Assembly (NCBI GenBank): GCA_013178225.1
Contig: JABLXE010000005.1
Span: 62,001-126,000 of the forward strand
DNA from: Methanotrichaceae archaeon
Lineage (GTDB): Archaea; Halobacteriota; Methanosarcinia; Methanotrichales; Methanotrichaceae
Reading direction: 5' to 3'
DNA: 64,000 bases
Position numbers and translations under genes: made by a program. Positions 30,419 through 51,928 of the stretch are shown here, in pieces (within the stretch, counting starts at the first letter, position 1; every line of letters begins with the position of its first letter). Under the pieces are notes generated by a model that was given only the letters and a program-made list of their open reading frames with translations, did not search any database and was not told the DNA's origin.

Positions 30419-30772
30419 ATGGGATTTGTCAGAGTATCACCTGAACTGGGTCTGATCTTCGATCCCATGAAGGGTGTAGTATCCGAGCAGAGGGCAGATG
30501 TAGTCCTCTACACCCTGGACCCGGTATTTGAACGGCTGGAGAAGCTGGACAAGATTTCAACCGATCTCGTCAACCAGCTTAGTCCGGACAACGAGCTCTT
30601 ATCATCCTATGCCAATAGGGGCAAGGCCTCTTACATAGCTGGCCTTTACACCAATATCTGGATGGGCTTCATCCTGGGACTGGTGCTTTCGTTCGTGGTG
30701 CTGGTTGCCATGGCCATGAGCAATCCCGATAGCATAGAGATTGTAAGAAAAGCACTAAGTGGAGGTGCCTGA
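30419..30772 (+). CDS. mtrB: Tetrahydromethanopterin S-methyltransferase subunit B
   Basis: Small peripheral/single-helix subunit, 117 residues: a soluble N-terminal part (VRVSPELGLIFDPMKGVV, then a coiled coil FERLEKLDKISTDLVNQL) and one transmembrane helix at residues ~80-103 (IWMGFILGLVLSFVVLVAMAM). MtrB sits on the stalk of the complex. SD is GAGGTCAGGAT before the ATG; the gap from mtrC is 12 nt. It ends 1 nt before mtrA. Confidence 0.93.
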   Translation: MGFVRVSPELGLIFDPMKGVVSEQRADVVLYTLDPVFERLEKLDKISTDLVNQLSPDNELLSSYANRGKASYIAGLYTNIWMGFILGLVLSFVVLVAMAMSNPDSIEIVRKALSGGA

Positions 30773-30773
30773 G

Positions 30774-31505
30774 ATGGCGCTTAAGAAAAAACCAGCAGAG
30801 CCCTGGCCTGTGATCACAGGAGAGTACGAGGTAGGAAATCCAGAGAGCCCTGTAGTGGTCTGTACTTGCGGATCGCACCTTCATAACAAGGATCTCATCG
30901 CTGCGGGGGCGGCACTGGCCGGACCCTGTAAGACTGAGAACATCGGCATAGAGAAGATGGTGGCCAACGTGGTCTCCAATCCCAACATCAGATACATTCT
31001 GGTAACAGGAATGGAGGTCAAAGGCCACATCACGGGGCAGGCTATAGATGCCTTTACCCAGAGCGGAATCGATAAAGAAGGGCGGATTATTGGGGCCAAA
31101 GGTGCCATCCCCTTCATCCAGAATCTGACTCCCGAATCCATCGAGAGGTGGAAGACTCAGGTTCAGGCCGTGATGATGATGGACACCGAAGATGCGGGCG
31201 CCATCACCGGCAAAATCAGGGAACTGGTCTCCAAAGACCCCGGTGCCTTAGATGTTGAGCCCATGATCATTGAGATCAAGGAGGGCGGAGAAGAAGAAGG
31301 CGGAGCAGCCCTTAAACCCATGGCTGCGGAGGTAGTGGAGATTCGGTCCAGGATGCGGGCTATGGATGCTGCCATTACCAATACCGGCATTCTCAATAAG
31401 CTGCAGGCAGGCATCTACGCAGGCAAGATCGAGGGCATTGCCCTGGGAATGACCCTGGTTCTGGTGCTGTTTGGCATTATACTCAAGGCCGCGGGAGGGA
31501 CCTGA
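30774..31505 (+). CDS. mtrA: Tetrahydromethanopterin S-methyltransferase subunit A
   Basis: Corrinoid-carrying subunit of Mtr, 243 residues. The cobalamin-binding domain covers residues ~1-180: PWPVITGEYEVG at the start, GPCKTENIGIEKMVANV, the conserved KGHITGQAID with its His (the cobamide ligand region in the family), and GAKGAIPFIQNLTPE. A single C-terminal membrane helix (IALGMTLVLVLFGIIL) anchors it. The frame begins at 30759 but ATG 30774 lies directly behind GGAGGTGCCTGAG. Compare the soluble paralogue at 46948-47589. Confidence 0.97.
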   Translation: MALKKKPAEPWPVITGEYEVGNPESPVVVCTCGSHLHNKDLIAAGAALAGPCKTENIGIEKMVANVVSNPNIRYILVTGMEVKGHITGQAIDAFTQSGIDKEGRIIGAKGAIPFIQNLTPESIERWKTQVQAVMMMDTEDAGAITGKIRELVSKDPGALDVEPMIIEIKEGGEEEGGAALKPMAAEVVEIRSRMRAMDAAITNTGILNKLQAGIYAGKIEGIALGMTLVLVLFGIILKAAGGT

Positions 31506-31985: not shown

Positions 31986-32921
31986 ATGTTCAGGTTTGAC
32001 AGAAAGCAAGAAGTCTTAGATTTCGGCAAGTTCAAGGTTGGGGGTCAGCCTGGTGAGTACCCCACATGCTGCATCGGCACCATGTTCTATGCCAGGCACA
32101 AGATAGTCTCGGATCCGGAGCACGGCGTGTTCGATAAGGCCGCTGCAGAGAGGCTGTGGAATACACAGGTAGAGATGAGCGAGATTACCGGAAACTCGTG
32201 CATGAACCAGATCGTGGCCGAGAGCAACGAGGCCATGGCCAAGGAGATCGACTGGTTCGTGGGACTGTCGGATTATCCGTTCCTGGTAGACTCATCAGCT
32301 CCCGAGGTGCGAGCCTTCGGCGTCAAGTACGCAACCGAGATCGGCGTGGCAGACCGGGCTATCCACAACTCCATCAATGCCTCCATCACCGATGAGGAGC
32401 TGAAGGCAGTTAAGGAGAGCGACCTGGATGCTGCTATTGTGCTGGCCTTTAACGCCATGGAGAAGGGGACCAAGGGCAAGATGGATATCTTGACCAAGGC
32501 CTCCGGCGGTGCCAAAAAGGGCATGCTCGAGTTCGCCAAGGAGTGCGGCATCACCCGCCCCCTGATCGACACTGCAGCCATGCCCCTGGGCAACGGATCG
32601 GGCGCTACCTACCGTGCCTGCATTGCCGTCAAGGCCATGCTGGGACTGCCGGTCGGAGGAGGCTTCCACAACGCCGCCTCTGCCTGGGACTGGATGAAGA
32701 AGTGGAAGAAACAGCACAAGGAAGCCTTCGCTCCGGTCGATATCGGCTCCAACCTGGTAGCCGGAATCGTGGGTGCCGATTTCTACCTCTATGGTCCCAT
32801 CGAGAACGCTGCCATGGTGTTCCCGGCTGCGGCCATGGTGGACATCATGAAGGCTGAGTCCGCAGTAGAGCTGGGCCTGGAAGTCCAGACTGAGGACCAC
32901 CCCATAAAGAAGACGATGTAA
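31986..32921 (+). CDS. mtrH: Tetrahydromethanopterin S-methyltransferase subunit H
   Basis: Soluble subunit that transfers the methyl group from methyl-tetrahydrosarcinapterin to the cobalt of MtrA. 311 residues, a TIM-barrel pterin methyltransferase fold. Landmarks: FGKFKVGGQPGEYPT near the start, PFLVDSSAPEVR, NAMEKGTKGKMDIL and PLGNGSGATYRACIAVKAMLG. Last gene of the operon, starting 0 nt after the mtrG stop with GGTGA as SD. The T-rich stretch after the stop suggests a terminator, with read-through to a YkgJ-type gene possible. Confidence 0.97.
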   Translation: MFRFDRKQEVLDFGKFKVGGQPGEYPTCCIGTMFYARHKIVSDPEHGVFDKAAAERLWNTQVEMSEITGNSCMNQIVAESNEAMAKEIDWFVGLSDYPFLVDSSAPEVRAFGVKYATEIGVADRAIHNSINASITDEELKAVKESDLDAAIVLAFNAMEKGTKGKMDILTKASGGAKKGMLEFAKECGITRPLIDTAAMPLGNGSGATYRACIAVKAMLGLPVGGGFHNAASAWDWMKKWKKQHKEAFAPVDIGSNLVAGIVGADFYLYGPIENAAMVFPAAAMVDIMKAESAVELGLEVQTEDHPIKKTM

Positions 32922-44427: not shown

Positions 44428-44829
44428 CTATTCCGAGATCGCTATGGTCCCCTGGTCGGCATCAACCTTCACCCAGGTTCCGCGCTCCAGCTGCAGCACC
44501 TCTTCAGGCACCCGATCCACCAGGGGAATGCCGCTGATAATGGCCCCCACAGCCACTATGGCCTCCGACCTGAGGTTTACCATGGCCGCCGGCGCAAGGC
44601 CCCTCTTCTGCAGCCGATAGATCACGTAAGAGCCCACCGTGGACCCTTTTCCGCCGGGAAAGATCAGCACCTTGCCACAGATGCATTCGCCGTAAAGCTC
44701 GTGCGAAGGGTCAACCACCTTTCCCGTCTCCGGATCGACGTTTCCCAAGAACGAGATGGCCTCCCGGGTACAGAGAGCAGGCCCGCTGGCGCAGCCGCTG
44801 GCAACCTTATGGCAGCGGATCTCCCTCAT
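44428..44829 (-). CDS. Phosphomevalonate dehydratase small subunit (aconitase X swivel)
   Basis: 133 residues, the DUF126 swivel domain. With the large subunit it dehydrates mevalonate 5-phosphate to trans-anhydromevalonate phosphate in the archaeal mevalonate route. Conserved VASGCASGPALCTREAISF, the loop GKVLIFPGGKGSTVGSYV and WVKVDADQGTIAI fit the family. The ATG overlaps the large subunit stop (ATGA) behind GGAGGGG; the extra N-terminus of the longer frame is rejected. Confidence 0.88.
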   Translation of the reverse strand: MREIRCHKVASGCASGPALCTREAISFLGNVDPETGKVVDPSHELYGECICGKVLIFPGGKGSTVGSYVIYRLQKRGLAPAAMVNLRSEAIVAVGAIISGIPLVDRVPEEVLQLERGTWVKVDADQGTIAISE

Positions 44830-46001
44830 GCCGGCCCCTCCTCCGTGGCGGCACGAATACAATCCTTGGTGCTGGAAAACCCGGCTTTGACCCCGCAGAG
44901 GCCCGGTAGGTAGGAGAGCGCCTTTCCCGAGTTGACCAGCATCTTGGAGAATCGCTCACTTGCAGGCGAGACCACCATGCAGGTGTCGCACAGCACCCGC
45001 GCCCCACTGGCCTCGATCTTCCGCACCAGATCGGGCCGGGCCTCGGCGGTCTTTCTGGCGGTGCAGATCCACAGCTCCTTGGTAACCTTCTTTTCCTCGA
45101 GCAGATCTGCGACCCTCTCCAGCTCCTGAACCGAGCAGTGAGGGCATCCCAGAGCCACGATCTCCGCGCCGGAGCCGGGATGATGTTCGTAGACCTCCTC
45201 GATCTCCTCGCGCCCGAGAGAAAGCGTCTCCTCCGACTCGAGGGGCAGCGGCGGAGAGAAGGTCACGCCCTCAACATAGTACAGGGCCACTGAGCCGCTG
45301 GCGGCCATGGCCGCCCCCAGGGCCTTCAGCTCGTCCCGCAAGGGCCGGGACCTGAGCCTGAAGAGGGGAACGCCGTCCTTCACGATCCTCCCGGCCACGA
45401 ACCCCAGGGCTCCGTAGTCAGACCCCGCAAGGTCGGCATCTACTTTGATCAGGTGAGTCGGCCTACGGCACTCGTCCAGGTGATATCCGTAAGCAGGAGT
45501 CTTTCCGATGAGAGCTGCCGCCAGGGCCGACGGACCTCCTTCACGATTGGTCCGGGCACCGATAACAGAGTTGGCGTAAGACACGGCAGAGGACTCGCTC
45601 CAGGCCAGGTGATCGCCGGGGCGGGCCAATTCGTCGTAGATCTGATAGGGCGTGCAGGTGCAGTCAATGGTGATTCCCAGCCGCCGGTACGCCTCCACGG
45701 TCTGTAGCTGTTTGGAGGCGAACTCTTCGGAGATCCCCATCTCCTGCCAGCGGCAGAGGTCCATTCCCGCCGGATTAAGAATGCTGGGAACGACCACCTG
45801 TCCATTCAGGTCTCTGATCCACTCCAAACCGGCATCGCCGATGTTCTTGAAGGACACCCCGGCAATCTGCACGCTTCTGACAGGTATCAGGCGCTCTGCT
45901 CCGTAGATGTCGCCCAGGGCCACCAGTATCTCCATCATCCGGCGTGAAGTCTTACCGCACTCTCCGGACAGCGTCCGCTCCTCTTCCTGGCTGAGGTACA
46001 T
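44826..46001 (-). CDS. Phosphomevalonate dehydratase large subunit (aconitase X catalytic)
   Basis: 391 residues of the DUF521 aconitase-X domain. The Fe-S cluster cysteines are in GCPHCS, LCDTCMVVSP-like stretch (VLCDTCMV) and LCGVKA. Family and pair partner show it to be mevalonate-5-phosphate dehydratase rather than a hydro-lyase of another acid; this rests on archaeal pathway knowledge. A TATA box at 46027-46034 places the transcript start at about 46003, so the mRNA is probably leaderless at ATG 46001. Confidence 0.9.
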   Translation of the reverse strand: MYLSQEEERTLSGECGKTSRRMMEILVALGDIYGAERLIPVRSVQIAGVSFKNIGDAGLEWIRDLNGQVVVPSILNPAGMDLCRWQEMGISEEFASKQLQTVEAYRRLGITIDCTCTPYQIYDELARPGDHLAWSESSAVSYANSVIGARTNREGGPSALAAALIGKTPAYGYHLDECRRPTHLIKVDADLAGSDYGALGFVAGRIVKDGVPLFRLRSRPLRDELKALGAAMAASGSVALYYVEGVTFSPPLPLESEETLSLGREEIEEVYEHHPGSGAEIVALGCPHCSVQELERVADLLEEKKVTKELWICTARKTAEARPDLVRKIEASGARVLCDTCMVVSPASERFSKMLVNSGKALSYLPGLCGVKAGFSSTKDCIRAATEEGPA

Positions 46002-46037: not shown

Positions 46038-46970
46038 TCAGGCCAGCCTGAAGATGGGATGCTCGGGAACGGGCCACACCTCCAGATCGCGCACAGCCTC
46101 TGCCACCAGGATATCGGACATGGCTGCCACCGGAAAGATGCTGCTCGCGTTCTCTATCGGCCCGTAAAGCAGGAAGTCGCCGGCAGCCAGAAGCTGCATT
46201 GCCGCAGCTGCCGCATCACAGAAACTCCTGGTCTGCCGGTCTTTGCCCTTGAGCCAGCTCCAGGCGCTGACGGCGTTGTGAATTCCCGAGCCCACCGGGA
46301 GGCCCAGACGGGCCTTGGCAACCACCGAGAATCTCAATGCCGCCCCGGCACCGCTTCCAAGCGGCACCACCCCGGGATCCAGAAGCAGGTTTTTCATCCC
46401 CAGCTCTCCGGCCAGCGGGATCAAACCCTGATCTCGAACTGTCCCTCCAGTCTCAAGAACCGCCATGGAGCCGTCAACTCCCGGAACCGCGGGGTTGTAG
46501 GCCAGGACGATGGCCGAGTCGATCTCGGACTCCTGCAATGCCTGCGCCTCTTCATCGCCTGTCGCCAGGCTCAGGCTGTTGTAGACCACTAGATCCGCGA
46601 GCCCCAGCTCGGAGACCAGTCCGGCCATGGCAGAACGAACCCTCGAATCTGCCGAGTCGATGATCAGGGGTCCGTCCCAGGTGGCCTCCACGAACTCCAG
46701 GTAACGCTCGAAGGCCTGGGCGGTGCGGGAAAATAGATGCAGAATCGCAGGATTGCCGGTCTCCTGTGAGAGTTCCGCCTGTCTGTTAATCAGAGCCTCG
46801 GCCCGCTCCCGGTCGAAGAGGCCTCGGTCCTCGTCCTGGACCAGACGCTGTCCCTGATAGAAGATGGTGCCGCAAAGCACCGTCGGATGCTCGCCCGGCT
46901 GGCCGCCAAGCCTCACACCCCCCACATTTGCCACCGTTTGCTCGCGCTCAAACCGGAACAGGATCGACAC
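46038..46970 (-). CDS. MtrH-like methyltransferase, second copy
   Basis: 310 residues; a clear relative of MtrH. LGGQPGEHPTVLCGTIFYQGQ, PLIIDSADSRVRS and VVPLGSGAGAALRFSVVAKARLGLPVG mirror 31986-32921, but divergence is considerable, so it is not a recent copy. It overlaps the MtrA-like gene by 23 nt. Its GTG start sits within GGGAGGTG, leaving no separate SD; translation coupling is likely. Together with the soluble MtrA it may methylate a corrinoid from, or to, a substrate other than CoM. Confidence 0.85.
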   Translation of the reverse strand: MSILFRFEREQTVANVGGVRLGGQPGEHPTVLCGTIFYQGQRLVQDEDRGLFDRERAEALINRQAELSQETGNPAILHLFSRTAQAFERYLEFVEATWDGPLIIDSADSRVRSAMAGLVSELGLADLVVYNSLSLATGDEEAQALQESEIDSAIVLAYNPAVPGVDGSMAVLETGGTVRDQGLIPLAGELGMKNLLLDPGVVPLGSGAGAALRFSVVAKARLGLPVGSGIHNAVSAWSWLKGKDRQTRSFCDAAAAAMQLLAAGDFLLYGPIENASSIFPVAAMSDILVAEAVRDLEVWPVPEHPIFRLA

Positions 46971-47589
46971 CTCCCTTGACCAGCCAGGCGGCCGTATTCA
47001 TGACCACGCCTGCCCCCAGGTGCAGATCGCCCTGGCCGTCTGCGACGGGAAGCGATCTGGCCCTCCTCTTGAAGACCAGGAAGGGCTCCTGGGGATAAGG
47101 CCCTTTCCGGCAGGAATAGGACCTGACCAGGGCCTCGATCTCCTCCTGGTCCAGAAGTCCGATCCGGTCCACGATCTCCACCTGGTCCTGAAACCGGGCT
47201 ACAGCCTCGGCGGGAAGGTTCTGAATGAAAGGTATGGCACCCTTGGACCCCACGATACGGCCGTTGTCATCGATTCCGTTCCGGTGAAGGGCCAAAATGG
47301 CATCTCCGGGCAGATGGCCCTTGGACTCCGGCCCGCAGATCAGCAGATAGCGCAGGTTGGAATTGGATATCAAGTTGGCCACGATCTTTTCAACTCCCAG
47401 GTTCTCGGTCTTGCAGGGACCGTAGATAGCCGCGCCCTTGACCTTCATCTGGGCGGCCAGGGTCACCACTGCCACCCTGCCCTCCGGGTCGACCACCGTG
47501 AAGTCCCCCCGAACCGGAGGCCAGGGCTCAGAACAGTTCTTCCTGGAGGTGGCGCACCCGGGATTTGCAGCAGGAGTCTCTTGAATCAT
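46948..47589 (-). CDS. Soluble MtrA-like corrinoid protein
   Basis: 213 residues. PWPPVRGDFTVVD, YGPCKTENLGVEKIVANLIS, the His-containing SKGHLPGDAI and GSKGAIPFIQNLP correspond to the cobalamin domain of MtrA. The C-terminal membrane anchor of the true MtrA is missing: the end (LGAGVVMNTAAWLVKGG) is not a membrane helix. No mtrB-G genes accompany it, so it is not part of a sodium-pumping complex. It precedes the MtrH-like gene in the same operon and is divergent from a winged-helix regulator. Confidence 0.85.
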   Translation of the reverse strand: MIQETPAANPGCATSRKNCSEPWPPVRGDFTVVDPEGRVAVVTLAAQMKVKGAAIYGPCKTENLGVEKIVANLISNSNLRYLLICGPESKGHLPGDAILALHRNGIDDNGRIVGSKGAIPFIQNLPAEAVARFQDQVEIVDRIGLLDQEEIEALVRSYSCRKGPYPQEPFLVFKRRARSLPVADGQGDLHLGAGVVMNTAAWLVKGGVDPVPV

Positions 47590-47780: not shown

Positions 47781-48170
47781 ATGACCGCCTACAAGGAGCG
47801 AATACTGAAGGTCATAGACGACTCGGAAGTGGGCCTCACGACCGTTGATGTGGCCAAACAGGCCGGGGTCAGCAAGACCACGGTGATCAAGTACCTCTCG
47901 GTCCTCAGATCCGAGGGCCAGGTAGAGTTTGTCGAAGTAGGACCGGCCAAGCTGTGGAGGATCACGGGCCGGATGGAAAAGCCCGCTTTGGAGCATCCCC
48001 GCCCAACTGACAGACGTGTGGATATCGAAGCCCTGCCCGTGGTTGATATAGATCTGGGCAATGGAGATGACAAGACGCTCTACTTCTCGTTTCGGGTCAA
48101 TCCCGAGCAGATCTGTGCCCTCTTGAAACAGGCCAAGAAATGCGACTGCAAAACTGCAGAACCTTGTTGA
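47781..48170 (+). CDS. Winged-helix regulator with C-terminal Cys-rich tail
   Basis: 129 residues. The winged helix-turn-helix is at ~1-60 (GLTTVDVAKQAGVSKTTVIKYLSVLRSEGQVEFV, GPAKLWRI). The linker is rich in Pro and charged residues; the C-terminus ends in KQAKKCDCKTAEPC, which may sense redox or metal. ATG 47781 follows GGTGG. It is divergent from the MtrA-like gene and 12 nt upstream of the double KaiC-like gene, so it could regulate either. Confidence 0.75.
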   Translation: MTAYKERILKVIDDSEVGLTTVDVAKQAGVSKTTVIKYLSVLRSEGQVEFVEVGPAKLWRITGRMEKPALEHPRPTDRRVDIEALPVVDIDLGNGDDKTLYFSFRVNPEQICALLKQAKKCDCKTAEPC

Positions 48171-48182
48171 TGGTGTTTTGCG

Positions 48183-49538
48183 ATGCTTGTACCACGTGAG
48201 ATACGGAATTTCTTCAGCATCGAAAGAGGCCAGACCCTGCTGGTGAAAGGACTTCCCGGAACTGGAAAGACGACCCTGGCCCTGGAGATCATGAACTCCC
48301 TGTGCAAGAAAGATAACGGGCTTTACATCTCCACCCGGGTCGATCCGGTGAGGCTGTGCAAAACCAACCCCTGGATAAAGGAAGTCCTGCCCTCAAAAAA
48401 CGTCATCAACGCCACCCAGACCAAGCTCCTGGATAGCCTGCGTAAGCTTCGGCGAGAGCTAACAGATTACTATGCGGTCATGGATTTCTTCCGGGTCTTC
48501 TTCGAGGAGGCCGAGGACATGGATGATCCGATGGTGGTGATCGATAGCTGGGACGCAGTTTTAAACTACACCTCCCAGATGATCGGCAACTCTCAGCACA
48601 GCTTCGAGCAGAACATCTGCGAGTTTGCGCGTGACCTTGACACTCACCTGATCTTCGTCAGCGAATTCGACAGCGTCATGCCGCTGGACTATATCGTGGA
48701 CGGCGTCGTGACCATGGAGAGCTTCCGGCTGCGGAGTGAGGACAGAAGCGGAATGCGGACCCGCTTCGCACGCCAGATTCGCCTTGACAAGCTGAGGGGG
48801 GTGGAGATCAAGCAGAAGACCTACACCGCCACCCTTCACGGAGGCCGTTTCAGGTACTTCGAGCCCTACCGCGGGGAGCGCGATGCAAGAATTTCCCCCG
48901 TTGACGTCGTGCGGATCCCCGATCCCGGCAAGGAATGCATCTCTACCGGAATTCCCGATCTGGATGCCGTCACCAGGGGGCTGAAGTACGGCTCCTGCAA
49001 CGTCTTCGAGATCGACCACTGGGTCGGAAAGCGCTACTATCAGATAATTACCGCCCTGGCCTCCAACGCCATAAAAAACGGCAGAGGGGTGTTCATCCTG
49101 CCCAGCATAGGGTACCAGCTGAGCCCCAAGGACATCTTCGTTCCCACCAATGTGATCGTGGCCCAGCCGGAGGGAGAAGACGCCTCGGCCTGGGGAAAAG
49201 AGGTGGTGGAAAAGTGGGACCTGCTGCGGGAGAGGACCGGCCGGCCCATATTGAACATCATCGGCATGGATGCAATCGAGTTCGCCTTTGGCTACAAGGA
49301 ACTGCTGAACATGGCCAACCTCATGATGCACAAATGGAAGGAGACCAACGACATCAATGTCCTGGTGGTCAAGAACGGCCAGGAGAGCCTCAACATGGCC
49401 GTCCACACCGCAGATACCTACTTCCTGGTGAGCGAACTCAACGGCGGCCTCTGCCTTTACGGGGTCATCCCCAGAACGGAGCCCTTCAACATGCTCGTGG
49501 AAGATAGAAACAAGATCAGCCTGACGCCCATCGTCTAG
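48183..49538 (+). CDS. Double KaiC/GvpD-like ATPase with degenerate second half
   Basis: 451 residues. The first RecA-like domain has Walker A KGLPGTGKTTLA (residues ~22-33) and a Walker B at MVVIDSWDA (~118-126). After a linker a second domain begins at CISTGIPDLDAVTRGLKYGS, but the Walker A position reads EIDHWVGKRYYQ, so ATP binding is lost there. The layout resembles GvpD-type and other RecA-like signal ATPases of archaea. No gas-vesicle gene is near. It follows the winged-helix gene by 12 nt and is probably an accessory regulator with it. Confidence 0.72.
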   Translation: MLVPREIRNFFSIERGQTLLVKGLPGTGKTTLALEIMNSLCKKDNGLYISTRVDPVRLCKTNPWIKEVLPSKNVINATQTKLLDSLRKLRRELTDYYAVMDFFRVFFEEAEDMDDPMVVIDSWDAVLNYTSQMIGNSQHSFEQNICEFARDLDTHLIFVSEFDSVMPLDYIVDGVVTMESFRLRSEDRSGMRTRFARQIRLDKLRGVEIKQKTYTATLHGGRFRYFEPYRGERDARISPVDVVRIPDPGKECISTGIPDLDAVTRGLKYGSCNVFEIDHWVGKRYYQIITALASNAIKNGRGVFILPSIGYQLSPKDIFVPTNVIVAQPEGEDASAWGKEVVEKWDLLRERTGRPILNIIGMDAIEFAFGYKELLNMANLMMHKWKETNDINVLVVKNGQESLNMAVHTADTYFLVSELNGGLCLYGVIPRTEPFNMLVEDRNKISLTPIV

Positions 49539-49571: not shown

Positions 49572-50081
49572 TTATATCGAGGCTTTGATCTTGTGCCCGC
49601 GAGCGATCTGCGCTGCCGCATCGCGGCGCATGATCTCCGCGAACTCCTCCTGCTCGGCAAACACCAGGGTGCCGGTGGGACAGGCGGAAACGCAGGCCGG
49701 AACCATCAGGCTGGGGCACAGATCGCACTTGACCGCGATCTTGACCTCCTTTTGTCTTCCCACCATGCCGTAGGGACAGACCATGGCGCACATCCAGCAA
49801 CCGATGCACATCGACTCGTCTTTGGTCACAATTCCGGTGATGGCATCCTTGACTGTGGCTCCAACCCGGCACACCTCAACACAGGGAGCATCCTCGCAGT
49901 GGCGGCAGACCATGGGCATCTTCACGCCCTCCGGGTTCTCCACGTAGAGCCGCTTTCGGGGCCTGGGCGTCTCAGCCATGGCCCCGAACAGGTTATGCGA
50001 TTTGGAATGCTCCACAGCACAGGCAATCTCGCAGGACTTGCAGCCCATACAGCGGTCCAGTCGAACGAATATCTCCTTCAT
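49572..50081 (-). CDS. cooF: CooF-like 4Fe-4S electron-transfer protein
   Basis: 169 residues, carries electrons from CO dehydrogenase to a membrane or soluble acceptor. Four cysteine sets are visible: CMGCKSCEIAC, CRHCEDAPCVEVC, CIGCWMCAMVC and CDLCPSLMVPACVSAC, so four [4Fe-4S] clusters as in CooF/HycB. ATG 50081 lies 2 nt after the cooS stop, so translation is coupled. No Ech-type hydrogenase or CooA regulator is in the window. Confidence 0.9.
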   Translation of the reverse strand: MKEIFVRLDRCMGCKSCEIACAVEHSKSHNLFGAMAETPRPRKRLYVENPEGVKMPMVCRHCEDAPCVEVCRVGATVKDAITGIVTKDESMCIGCWMCAMVCPYGMVGRQKEVKIAVKCDLCPSLMVPACVSACPTGTLVFAEQEEFAEIMRRDAAAQIARGHKIKASI

Positions 50082-50083
50082 CC

Positions 50084-51928
50084 TTACAACCCCAGCTTTT
50101 TCCGCTGGCTATCGATATGATCGATCATCAACCTGGCAGCCTGTATCGGCTCCGGCTCTACGGCAAAGGACGCGCCCACGACCGATGCCGCTCCTTCGGT
50201 CAGAAGGCCGGCCACCTCCGGGCTTCCCAGAACCGGTGGAACGGTGCCAAGAACCGTGTAAACTCCGGACGAAACCACATAGGCGCCGATCGAGACCGCC
50301 TTTTCGCTCATCCATTCAGGGGCTGCGCCAGCAGCGGGCAGGTCGCTTATGTCCACGCCCAGGGCGTTGGCTATGGCCGCAGCGGCTACCAGAATTCTGC
50401 TGATATCCACGCAGGAGCCCATATGCAGGACCGGCGGCACTCCCAGCGCCTTGCACACGCCCTTCAATCCCTCGCCGGCCAGGTCCGCGGCTTCCGGCAG
50501 CAGAAGTCCTTCCTTGGCGCAGGCGATGGCATTGCAGCCGGTGGTGACCACCAGCACGTTGTTCTTGATCAGTTCCTTGACCAGGTTGACGTGGCCGTAG
50601 TCGTGCTTGATCTTGGGATTATTGCAGCCCACCACCGCTCCGATTCCCCGAACGGCTCCGCTCTTGATCGCCTCCAGCAGGGGGTCCAGCGTTCCACCCA
50701 GCGCTTCGACAATAGCCTCGACTGAGAAGCCCACCATGGCGTCCGACTTGACATCCGGAATCCTGACCTTTGCCGGGTTCCGGTTGGCGTAGTTCAACAC
50801 CGCGGCCTTGACTATGTCCTTGGCAGTCTCGTAGGCCGACTCCTCATGAAACTCCATGTGAATGGCCCCCGGGAACTTGGCCTTGGGCGAGGTGGAGATG
50901 AACTTGGTGTGGTAGCAGCCGGCAAGAGCGCCCAGCGCGGGCATGATGCACTGAACGTCCACCACTATGGCTTCCACCGCTCCGGTGGCCACGGCCAGCT
51001 CCTGCTGCAGGAAGTTGCCTGCCGTTGGCACGCCGTGACGCATGAGCAACTCGTTTCCGGTACAGCACATCCCGGCCACGTTGATTCCCGCGGCACCCTG
51101 TGCTTCTGCCAGCCTGAGCAGCTCGGGATCGGATGCGGCAGCTACAATCATCTCAGAGAGGATGGGCTCGTGGCCGTGTATGATCACGTTCACCTTATCT
51201 TCATCCAGGACGCCGAGGTTGACCTGAGATCTCACCGGCTTCGGAGTGCCGAACATGACATCCTGAATCTCGGTGGCGATCATGGAGCCGCCCCAGCCGT
51301 CAGCGATGCTGGCGCGCAGACCCTGCAGTATCAAATGGACGTAGTCGTTGTCGACACCGATGTGGGTCCGGTGCATGATCTCCACGATCTCGCGGTCGAT
51401 GCCGCGCGGATCGATGCCCAGCTTCTGCCACAGCTCCTGCCGCTTTTTCGGTGCGCGGCGGGTGAACTGGATGGGGCCGTCTTGCTTTCCGAACTCGGCC
51501 ATGACCGCCTCGGCCAGAGCTATCTGGCTCTGTACCCCGTATTCATCCATCAGCCGCTGCATCTTGGCGCTGTCCCTTACCTGATACGACGGTGCTTTGC
51601 CCTGGGACAGGAGAAGAAAAGTCTTGGCTGCATCTCTGCCGTGATCCGAATGAGCGGCAGCGCCGGCGGCGATGCTTCGCAGCAGGTTTCTGGCCACCAT
51701 TATGTCCGCGGTAGCTCCACAGACTCCCTTGCTGGGACCTTCACCAAAGGGGTCAATCCTGCAGGGGCCCATGTTGCAGTTGCGGCAGCATAGCCCGGCT
51801 TCCCCAAATCCGCACTGCGGCTTTTGCTTCTCAAGGCGATCCCACGCGGTCTCCAGGCCTGCTCTGGCTGCCACCACAAGCATTTCCTGGCTGGCCTGGT
51901 CAATTGATTTCTCACGAGCCTCCTTCAC
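50084..51928 (-). CDS. cooS: Anaerobic carbon monoxide dehydrogenase catalytic subunit
   Basis: Oxidises CO to CO2 at a Ni-Fe-S cluster. 614 residues. The N-terminal CGFGEAGLCCRNCNMGPCRI binds clusters B and D; HAEPI-like GHEPILSEM carries the proton-relay His, and CMPALG, GCYHTKF, VGCNNPK, TTGCNAIACA and GSCVDI hold the C-cluster ligands and surroundings. It is the bacterial CooS type, not the archaeal CdhA type. The start is GTG 51928. The unusual A/T-rich upstream region 51929-52080 is the promoter. Confidence 0.95.
   Translation of the reverse strand: MKEAREKSIDQASQEMLVVAARAGLETAWDRLEKQKPQCGFGEAGLCCRNCNMGPCRIDPFGEGPSKGVCGATADIMVARNLLRSIAAGAAAHSDHGRDAAKTFLLLSQGKAPSYQVRDSAKMQRLMDEYGVQSQIALAEAVMAEFGKQDGPIQFTRRAPKKRQELWQKLGIDPRGIDREIVEIMHRTHIGVDNDYVHLILQGLRASIADGWGGSMIATEIQDVMFGTPKPVRSQVNLGVLDEDKVNVIIHGHEPILSEMIVAAASDPELLRLAEAQGAAGINVAGMCCTGNELLMRHGVPTAGNFLQQELAVATGAVEAIVVDVQCIMPALGALAGCYHTKFISTSPKAKFPGAIHMEFHEESAYETAKDIVKAAVLNYANRNPAKVRIPDVKSDAMVGFSVEAIVEALGGTLDPLLEAIKSGAVRGIGAVVGCNNPKIKHDYGHVNLVKELIKNNVLVVTTGCNAIACAKEGLLLPEAADLAGEGLKGVCKALGVPPVLHMGSCVDISRILVAAAAIANALGVDISDLPAAGAAPEWMSEKAVSIGAYVVSSGVYTVLGTVPPVLGSPEVAGLLTEGAASVVGASFAVEPEPIQAARLMIDHIDSQRKKLGL

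Follow-up and report, generated by a model that had tools for sequence, protein, structure and literature searches.

A Soluble MtrA/MtrH-Type Gene Pair in a Methanotrichaceae Archaeon: a Candidate Two-Protein Methyltransferase of Biosynthesis

The mtxA–mtxH Locus

Which methyl acceptor could be served by a soluble MtrA and a stand-alone MtrH that are encoded outside the mtr operon? The question is raised by a locus in the window analyzed here, a stretch of 64,000 nt from a contig of a Methanotrichaceae archaeon. As the original prediction had stated, both open reading frames are present between positions 46038 and 47589, on the minus strand, and they match the Pfam families MtrA and MtrH. The mtxA gene (46948..47589, minus strand, ATG start) encodes a soluble MtrA-like corrinoid protein of 213 amino acid residues, an assignment based on the Pfam match (E = 1.2e-55), the conserved residues, the structural model and the tree. 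The mtxH gene (46038..46970, minus strand, GTG start) overlaps mtxA by 23 nt and encodes a predicted MtrH-like TIM-barrel methyl-pterin:corrinoid methyltransferase of 310 residues (Pfam MtrH, E = 9e-104; tree). The only other copies of MtrA and MtrH in the whole genome are those of the complete mtr operon of the window, namely mtrA (30759..31505, plus strand) and mtrH (31986..32921, plus strand), which fall in the mtr clade of the trees and share 46 and 39% identity with mtxA and mtxH, respectively. The pair is thus well diverged from the operon copies, as had been proposed.

The Pfam MtrA match stops at residue 168 of 212 in MtxA, and no hydrophobic helix was found after the domain. In place of the membrane helix, the C-terminus carries a polar tail of ∼25 residues with the motif GDxxxGxxVxxDxxAW, which is conserved within the family and partly among relatives. 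Genes for the channel subunits (MtrB-G) were absent at 46–48 kb, the mtr operon being located elsewhere in the window. Given that MtxA is soluble and that no channel subunits are encoded at the locus, the pair is unable to pump sodium by itself, and with neither an anchor on MtxA nor MtrB-G genes alongside, membership of the Mtr complex (mtrEDCBAFGH) was rejected. The loss of the anchor and of the channel subunits had been correctly read from the DNA.

The predicted winged-helix regulator was confirmed as a DNA-binding protein gene (47781..48170, plus strand; HTH matches, synteny) divergent from mtxA, and it adjoins a gene for a KaiC/GvpD P-loop ATPase-like protein (48183..49538, plus strand; Pfam GvpD_P-loop, E = 6.3e-21; synteny). 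Beyond these are a polyferredoxin gene (49572..50081, minus strand; Fer4_11, E = 1.3e-18) and, beside it, a CooS-type carbon monoxide dehydrogenase gene (50084..51928, minus strand; TIGR01702, 713 bits, cut-off 478; synteny). Downstream of mtxH are the genes for the large (44826..46001, minus strand; Pfam AcnX, E = 1.4e-148; synteny) and small, or swivel, subunits (44428..44862, minus strand; Pfam AcnX_swivel_put, E = 2.3e-34) of aconitase X, a syntenic neighbor for which no functional relation is claimed, followed by a gene matching NCBIfam PRK00994 (42397..43221, minus strand; 378 bits, cut-off 297; synteny). The neighbors of mtxAH in the window are mtd, acnX and cooS, and mesC is not among them.

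Corrinoid and Pterin Sites

Previous studies have shown that the cobalt ligand of MtrA is His84, which is hydrogen-bonded to Glu54, with Asp17, Lys52, Thr53, Asn55, Gly57 and Asn64 nearby (PMC4915002). His92 of MtxA occupies the cobalt-ligand position, and the window MtxA has every one of these cobalamin-site residues; the equivalents of His84, Glu54, Asn55, Gly57 and Thr53 were invariant in 103/103 MtxA rows. The AlphaFold model of MtxA (mean pLDDT 82.8; core mostly >90, tail low) matched the cobalamin-loaded soluble MtrA homolog 5LAA with a TM score of 0.88 by target length and 51% identity. For MtrH, pterin contacts have been modeled at Asp102, Asn128, Asp195 and Asn229 (PMC10998594); PDB alignments mapped these to D105, N131, D198 and N232 of the window MtxH, all invariant in 17/17 MtxH. 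The corrinoid His and the MtrH barrel are therefore kept, as claimed; the loss of this His, which would have undone the proposal, was not observed.

Residues that set MtxA apart from the operon MtrA were also found. Val81, three residues ahead of the cobalt ligand, is replaced by Ser in 103/103 MtxA; Gly33 is replaced by Ala; and His35 is not conserved except in the rows from mcr-less relatives. Residues 33–35 of MtrA lie within a patch modeled as touching MtrC (PMC10998594), and the changes there would fit a release from the membrane complex. Taken together, the residues and the predicted fold are compatible with corrinoid binding and methyl transfer by MtxAH. The methyl shuttle between methyl-pterin and another carrier that was originally suggested appears to be the natural reading of the retained catalytic residues, and soluble methyl-pterin/corrinoid transfer is, judging from the sequences, very probably what the pair does.

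Family Membership and Phylogeny

The pair belongs to MtxA/MtxH, a known but uncharacterized family that was named for group II mtrA and subgroup II mtrH and for their operon with mtxX (PMC4632066, PMC3087415). In maximum-likelihood trees, the window proteins grouped with mtxA/mtxH of Methanosarcinaceae and ANME-2, apart from the operon copies: the operon clade of the MtrA tree was separated with an SH-aLRT of 98, and in the MtrH tree the Mtx clade had an SH-aLRT of 93 and the Methanotrichaceae MtxH one of 100. The trees were computed quickly and not bootstrapped, and MtrA is a short protein, which leaves the order of the inner branches uncertain. The family was found through most Methanosarcinia, and the order mtxA then mtxH recurs in families f2, f3, f8, f14 and f18 and in ANME-2. 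The affiliation with a known MtrA-like group that had been considered stood, in the form of the MtxA/MtxH clade. Membership of MtgA was rejected, as the MtrH-like protein reached 195 bits and the cut-off of that model is 550 (NF047990). The soluble methyl shuttle of the original prediction is retained in this light, and its protagonists are, according to the trees, members of an existing family and not orphans. The best NCBIfam model for mtxA, NF010654 (PRK14053 ‘methyltransferase’), gave 237 bits, under its cut-off of 279.

In Methanosarcinaceae, mtxX, mtxA and mtxH are adjacent. In our genome, mtxX is at G000:C23:203810 and the pair is on contig G000:C24, and mtxX was unlinked to mtxAH in all Methanotrichaceae where it was found. 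Adjacency to mtxX was treated as an operon-associated trait and not as a property defining the MtxA/MtxH proteins.

Further MtrA-type sequences were encountered in the survey. A soluble MtrA-like clade of Methanosarcinaceae (loci L170-L174), possibly the published group III, keeps the cobalt-ligand His and has an altered GAIPF segment. Another protein (L277:925-1854, genome G002), on a very long tree branch, combines an MtrA-like domain with a tail reading by eye as a GYF-type domain (WYVFKDNMQYGPLDPSMIIEWLREGRI). In addition, a highly divergent second mtr cluster was present in Methanotrichaceae genus g5 (L275:305-4952 in G004; L276:7914-12570 in G012). Compared with the operon of the window, its proteins showed identities of 42% (MtrE), 40% (MtrD), 30% (MtrC), 39% (MtrA) and 38% (MtrH), and the cluster resembles the ‘Mtr2’ of ANME-2 (PMC9012536).

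Distribution and the Published Role

Harms and Thauer (1997), cited in PMC4632066, proposed that the pair carries the methyl group of trimethylamine or methanol to the pterin; as presented there, the proposal rests on the known presence of the pair in Methanosarcinales. Among 37 Methanotrichaceae genomes, MtxA was found in 35 and MtxH in 34, and neither MtaB nor MtmB was found in any of them, our genome included. Conversely, all seven genomes of a Methanosarcinaceae genus (g17, presumably Methanolobus) have both MtaB and MtmB, and none of the seven has mtxA or mtxH. Since the pair is kept where these methyltransferases are lacking and is missing where both occur, methylotrophy fails as a general role, and we regard it as extremely improbable.

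The fold of the known soluble methylcorrinoid:coenzyme M (CoM) methyltransferases is that of the URO-D family. No URO-D family protein was found in our genome, and any such protein was found in only 2 of the 37 Methanotrichaceae genomes. With MtaB, MtmB and URO-D-type proteins all absent from the whole genome, the linked substrate methyltransferase that was to be sought elsewhere did not turn up and is not likely to exist.

The Pair in Families without McrA

The sample comprised 148 genomes of the phylum, and in three of its families (f8, f14 and f18; genomes of 0.7–1.6 Mb) a single MtrH-like gene was found, with 45–48% identity to MtxH. McrA was absent from all nine genomes of these families that carry the gene, six of which are at least 94% complete, and a second, mtr-type MtrH was not found in the three families. 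One further f8 genome (76% complete) had no MtrH-like gene. At each of the eight loci read, the gene adjoins an MtxA, and the proteins sampled in the trees fell inside the Mtx clade.

Downstream of mtxAH and in the same orientation, f8 and f18 carry the genes for methanogenesis marker 14 (mmp14), a MesA-type methionine synthase (mesA; NF002119, 327–329 bits, cut-off 258) and a thymidylate synthase of the methanogen type (thyA). The gap before mmp14 is 0.65 kb in f8 and ∼0.4 kb in f18, where it follows an intervening DHH-type gene; no tRNA was found in the mtxH–mmp14 gap. The arrangement is therefore described as close linkage and not as an operon. One f14 genome has marker 14 and thymidylate synthase at the locus and lacks mesA there. 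In ANME-2 and f18, mtxH is followed by a gene of ∼350 residues, which was considered as a methyltransferase or methyl acceptor and was rejected, as it had no Pfam match and showed a DHH-type phosphoesterase motif by eye. The retention of mtxAH in f8, f14 and f18 (L190-L194 and L210-L212), together with marker 14 and thymidylate synthase at the loci read in f8, f18 and one f14 genome, may be a remnant of lost methanogenesis.

These families bear on the possibility that MtxH and MtxA form a soluble bypass of Mtr, exchanging the methyl group between tetrahydrosarcinapterin (H4SPT) and CoM without sodium coupling, the CoM half being performed by MtxX or another protein. The chemistry of MtrA and MtrH suggests that the ancestral acceptor was CoM, and mtxX, which occurs throughout the methanogens (PMC3087415), belongs to the mtxXAH operon of Methanosarcinaceae. 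However, mtxAH is kept in three mcr-less families, where methyl-CoM has no obvious use, and mtxX is unlinked in Methanotrichaceae. Our genome also has no known second enzyme for such a bypass, since the URO-D type MT2 is absent, and an acetate user would presumably waste its only sodium-pumping methyl transfer. Transfer to CoM is thus considered unlikely.

Gene Neighborhood across Relatives

In the Methanotrichaceae loci read, mtxAH is flanked by the divergent winged-helix gene and the KaiC/GvpD-like ATPase gene, with two-subunit aconitase X and mtd downstream; in several genera, a CooS-type CODH and a ferredoxin lie beyond the regulator genes. The mtd and cooS neighbors, in the window and in these genera, would agree with a link to CODH/ACS (the Wood-Ljungdahl pathway), in which MtxA swaps methyl groups with the corrinoid iron-sulfur protein or routes the methyl group of acetate to the oxidation branch, and for other archaea it has been proposed that MtrAH feeds methyl groups into this pathway (PMC9635834). 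However, CdhD/CdhE are known to perform the H4SPT step already, and the neighborhood is not conserved beyond Methanotrichaceae: in f3, f8, f14 and f18 the neighbors are rfcL and other housekeeping genes, the divergent neighbor in f8, f14, f18 and Methanosarcinaceae being the gene for the replication factor C large subunit. A CODH/ACS role is therefore judged unlikely.

In most Methanotrichaceae, the winged-helix gene has kept its place next to mtxA, also where mtxH was relocated. In genus g10, a rearrangement has parted mtxA, which remains with the winged-helix and KaiC-like genes, from mtxH, which remains with acnX and mtd, and both genes are kept. This would be expected if MtxA were a corrinoid or methyl-pterin sensor, or a corrinoid store, acting with the divergent gene pair. 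Against such a regulatory or scavenging role, the loci of Methanosarcinaceae, ANME-2, f8, f14, f18 and the genera g6 and g11 lack the winged-helix/KaiC-like pair, and the two partners in methyl transfer have been retained with complete active sites, which makes it very unlikely. At the g10 loci (L043/L044, L048/L049 and L066/L067), mtxA lies by uvrB, together with a TPR gene, and mtxH by uvrC; the TPR, UvrB and UvrC neighbors in g5 and g10 were classed as housekeeping genes.

A Possible Link to Methionine Synthase

Core methionine synthases accept methylcobalamin as a methyl source in vitro, and a methyl-corrinoid protein is presumed to be the source in the cell; the predicted donors are MtrA for MesA and the corrinoid iron-sulfur protein for MesC, the form found in Methanosarcinales and Methanotrichales (PMC7857596). 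Earlier work cited in PMC7005905 had named MTH124 or MtrH as candidate partners. A comparative genomics study of 2022 gave a corrinoid protein as the donor of the methionine methyl group in methanogens and described its identity as unknown (PMC9012536).

Our genome has one MesC-like gene (G000:C3:11961–12905), which is unlinked to mtxAH and whose score of 374.6 bits is just below the curated cut-off of 387 (NF004712). The Zn-ligand positions are kept: His, His, Glu and Cys occur where they do in the MesC of Methanosarcinaceae. The gene lies 6 nt downstream of one reading by eye as threonine synthase (L232:6950-9285, G000:C3), and this adjoining gene supports its identification as a methionine synthase. 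NF004712 detected MesC in 59 of 61 relatives, and a PF01717 search for methionine synthase found it in none of the 61, presumably as MesC is too distant.

Covariation of evolutionary rates was analyzed for eight proteins in 15 Methanotrichaceae genomes, with the mean of the other proteins removed. When MtrA/MtrH alone served as the control, nearly every pair looked correlated, and a leave-two-out control was used instead. The partial correlation was 0.47 (p = 0.003) for MtxH–MesC and 0.42 (p = 0.0005) for MtxA–MesC, compared with 0.67 for the positive control MtrA–MtrH and 0.39 for MtxA–MtxH. Two pairs without an expected link reached similar values (MtrH–KaiC, 0.46; MtxA–AcnX, 0.43), so the covariation is weak support for the link. 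Moreover, MesC is present in genus g17 and in genomes G018, G034 and G051, all without mtxAH. MtxA is therefore not indispensable for MesC, and another donor must exist in these genomes.

Proposed Function

In the proposed mechanism, MtxH would take the N5-methyl group of methyl-tetrahydrosarcinapterin, or of a related methyl-pterin, and would transfer it to the Co(I) corrinoid that MtxA binds via His92, a half-reaction that we infer from homology and the intact residues. From methyl-MtxA, the methyl group would then go on to an acceptor in the cytosol, with no sodium being moved. This acceptor most likely belongs to anabolism, and the best guess would be the core methionine synthase, namely MesC here and MesA in the mcr-less relatives. 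MtxA/MtxH would on this reading be a soluble two-protein methyltransferase for biosynthesis with methionine synthase as its best-guess acceptor, to which we assign a probability of roughly 0.4. An anabolic rather than catabolic role, taken separately, seems reasonably probable, and methionine synthase as the acceptor is a tentative assignment. It is more doubtful that, in Methanosarcinia and mcr-less relatives alike, MtxH–MtxA is the methyl-corrinoid donor on which core methionine synthases rely, the methyl group passing from methyl-pterin to MtxA and then, through MesC or MesA, to homocysteine.

If this is correct, the Mtr machinery would have a soluble branch devoted to anabolism, which has outlived methanogenesis in some lineages, and, with MtxA as the donor, an uncharacterized gene pair of the major acetate-using methane producers would be given a function. 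Even without a role in methionine synthesis, the distribution contradicts the sole published functional proposal that we found for the pair. As an object the pair is of low novelty; what is new is the evidence contradicting the published role, the presence of the pair in mcr-less genomes and the methionine synthase link, which together lead to a testable hypothesis on the methyl donor of methionine.

Comparison with Known Systems

The methylcorrinoid:tetrahydrofolate methyltransferase MtgA (6SJ8) is, like MtxH, a stand-alone MtrH-like barrel, but MtxH scores under the NCBIfam cut-off for MtgA, and no glycine betaine genes were seen at the mtxAH locus. The cytoplasmic MtrA homolog of Methanothermus fervidus (5LAA, PMC4915002), a soluble MtrA domain with cobalamin, is the best structural match to MtxA. 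Members of its group share 60-97% identity with membrane-associated MtrA (PMC4915002), whereas the window MtxA shares 46% with its own operon MtrA and is further set apart by an additional conserved tail and by a partner gene of the MtrH type. With the Na+-translocating Mtr complex (8Q3V, 9QTP/9QTS), the pair has in common the fold, the corrinoid and pterin sites and presumably the first half-reaction; it differs in the missing anchor helix of MtxA, in the lack of MtrB-G at the locus and in the Mtx-specific residue changes. The closest system is the mtxXAH operon. The window locus departs from it by having no adjacent mtxX and by its divergent winged-helix/KaiC-like pair and acnX–mtd neighbors, and it agrees with it in the common clade in both trees, the absence of a membrane helix, the order of mtxA and mtxH and the equivalent of His84.
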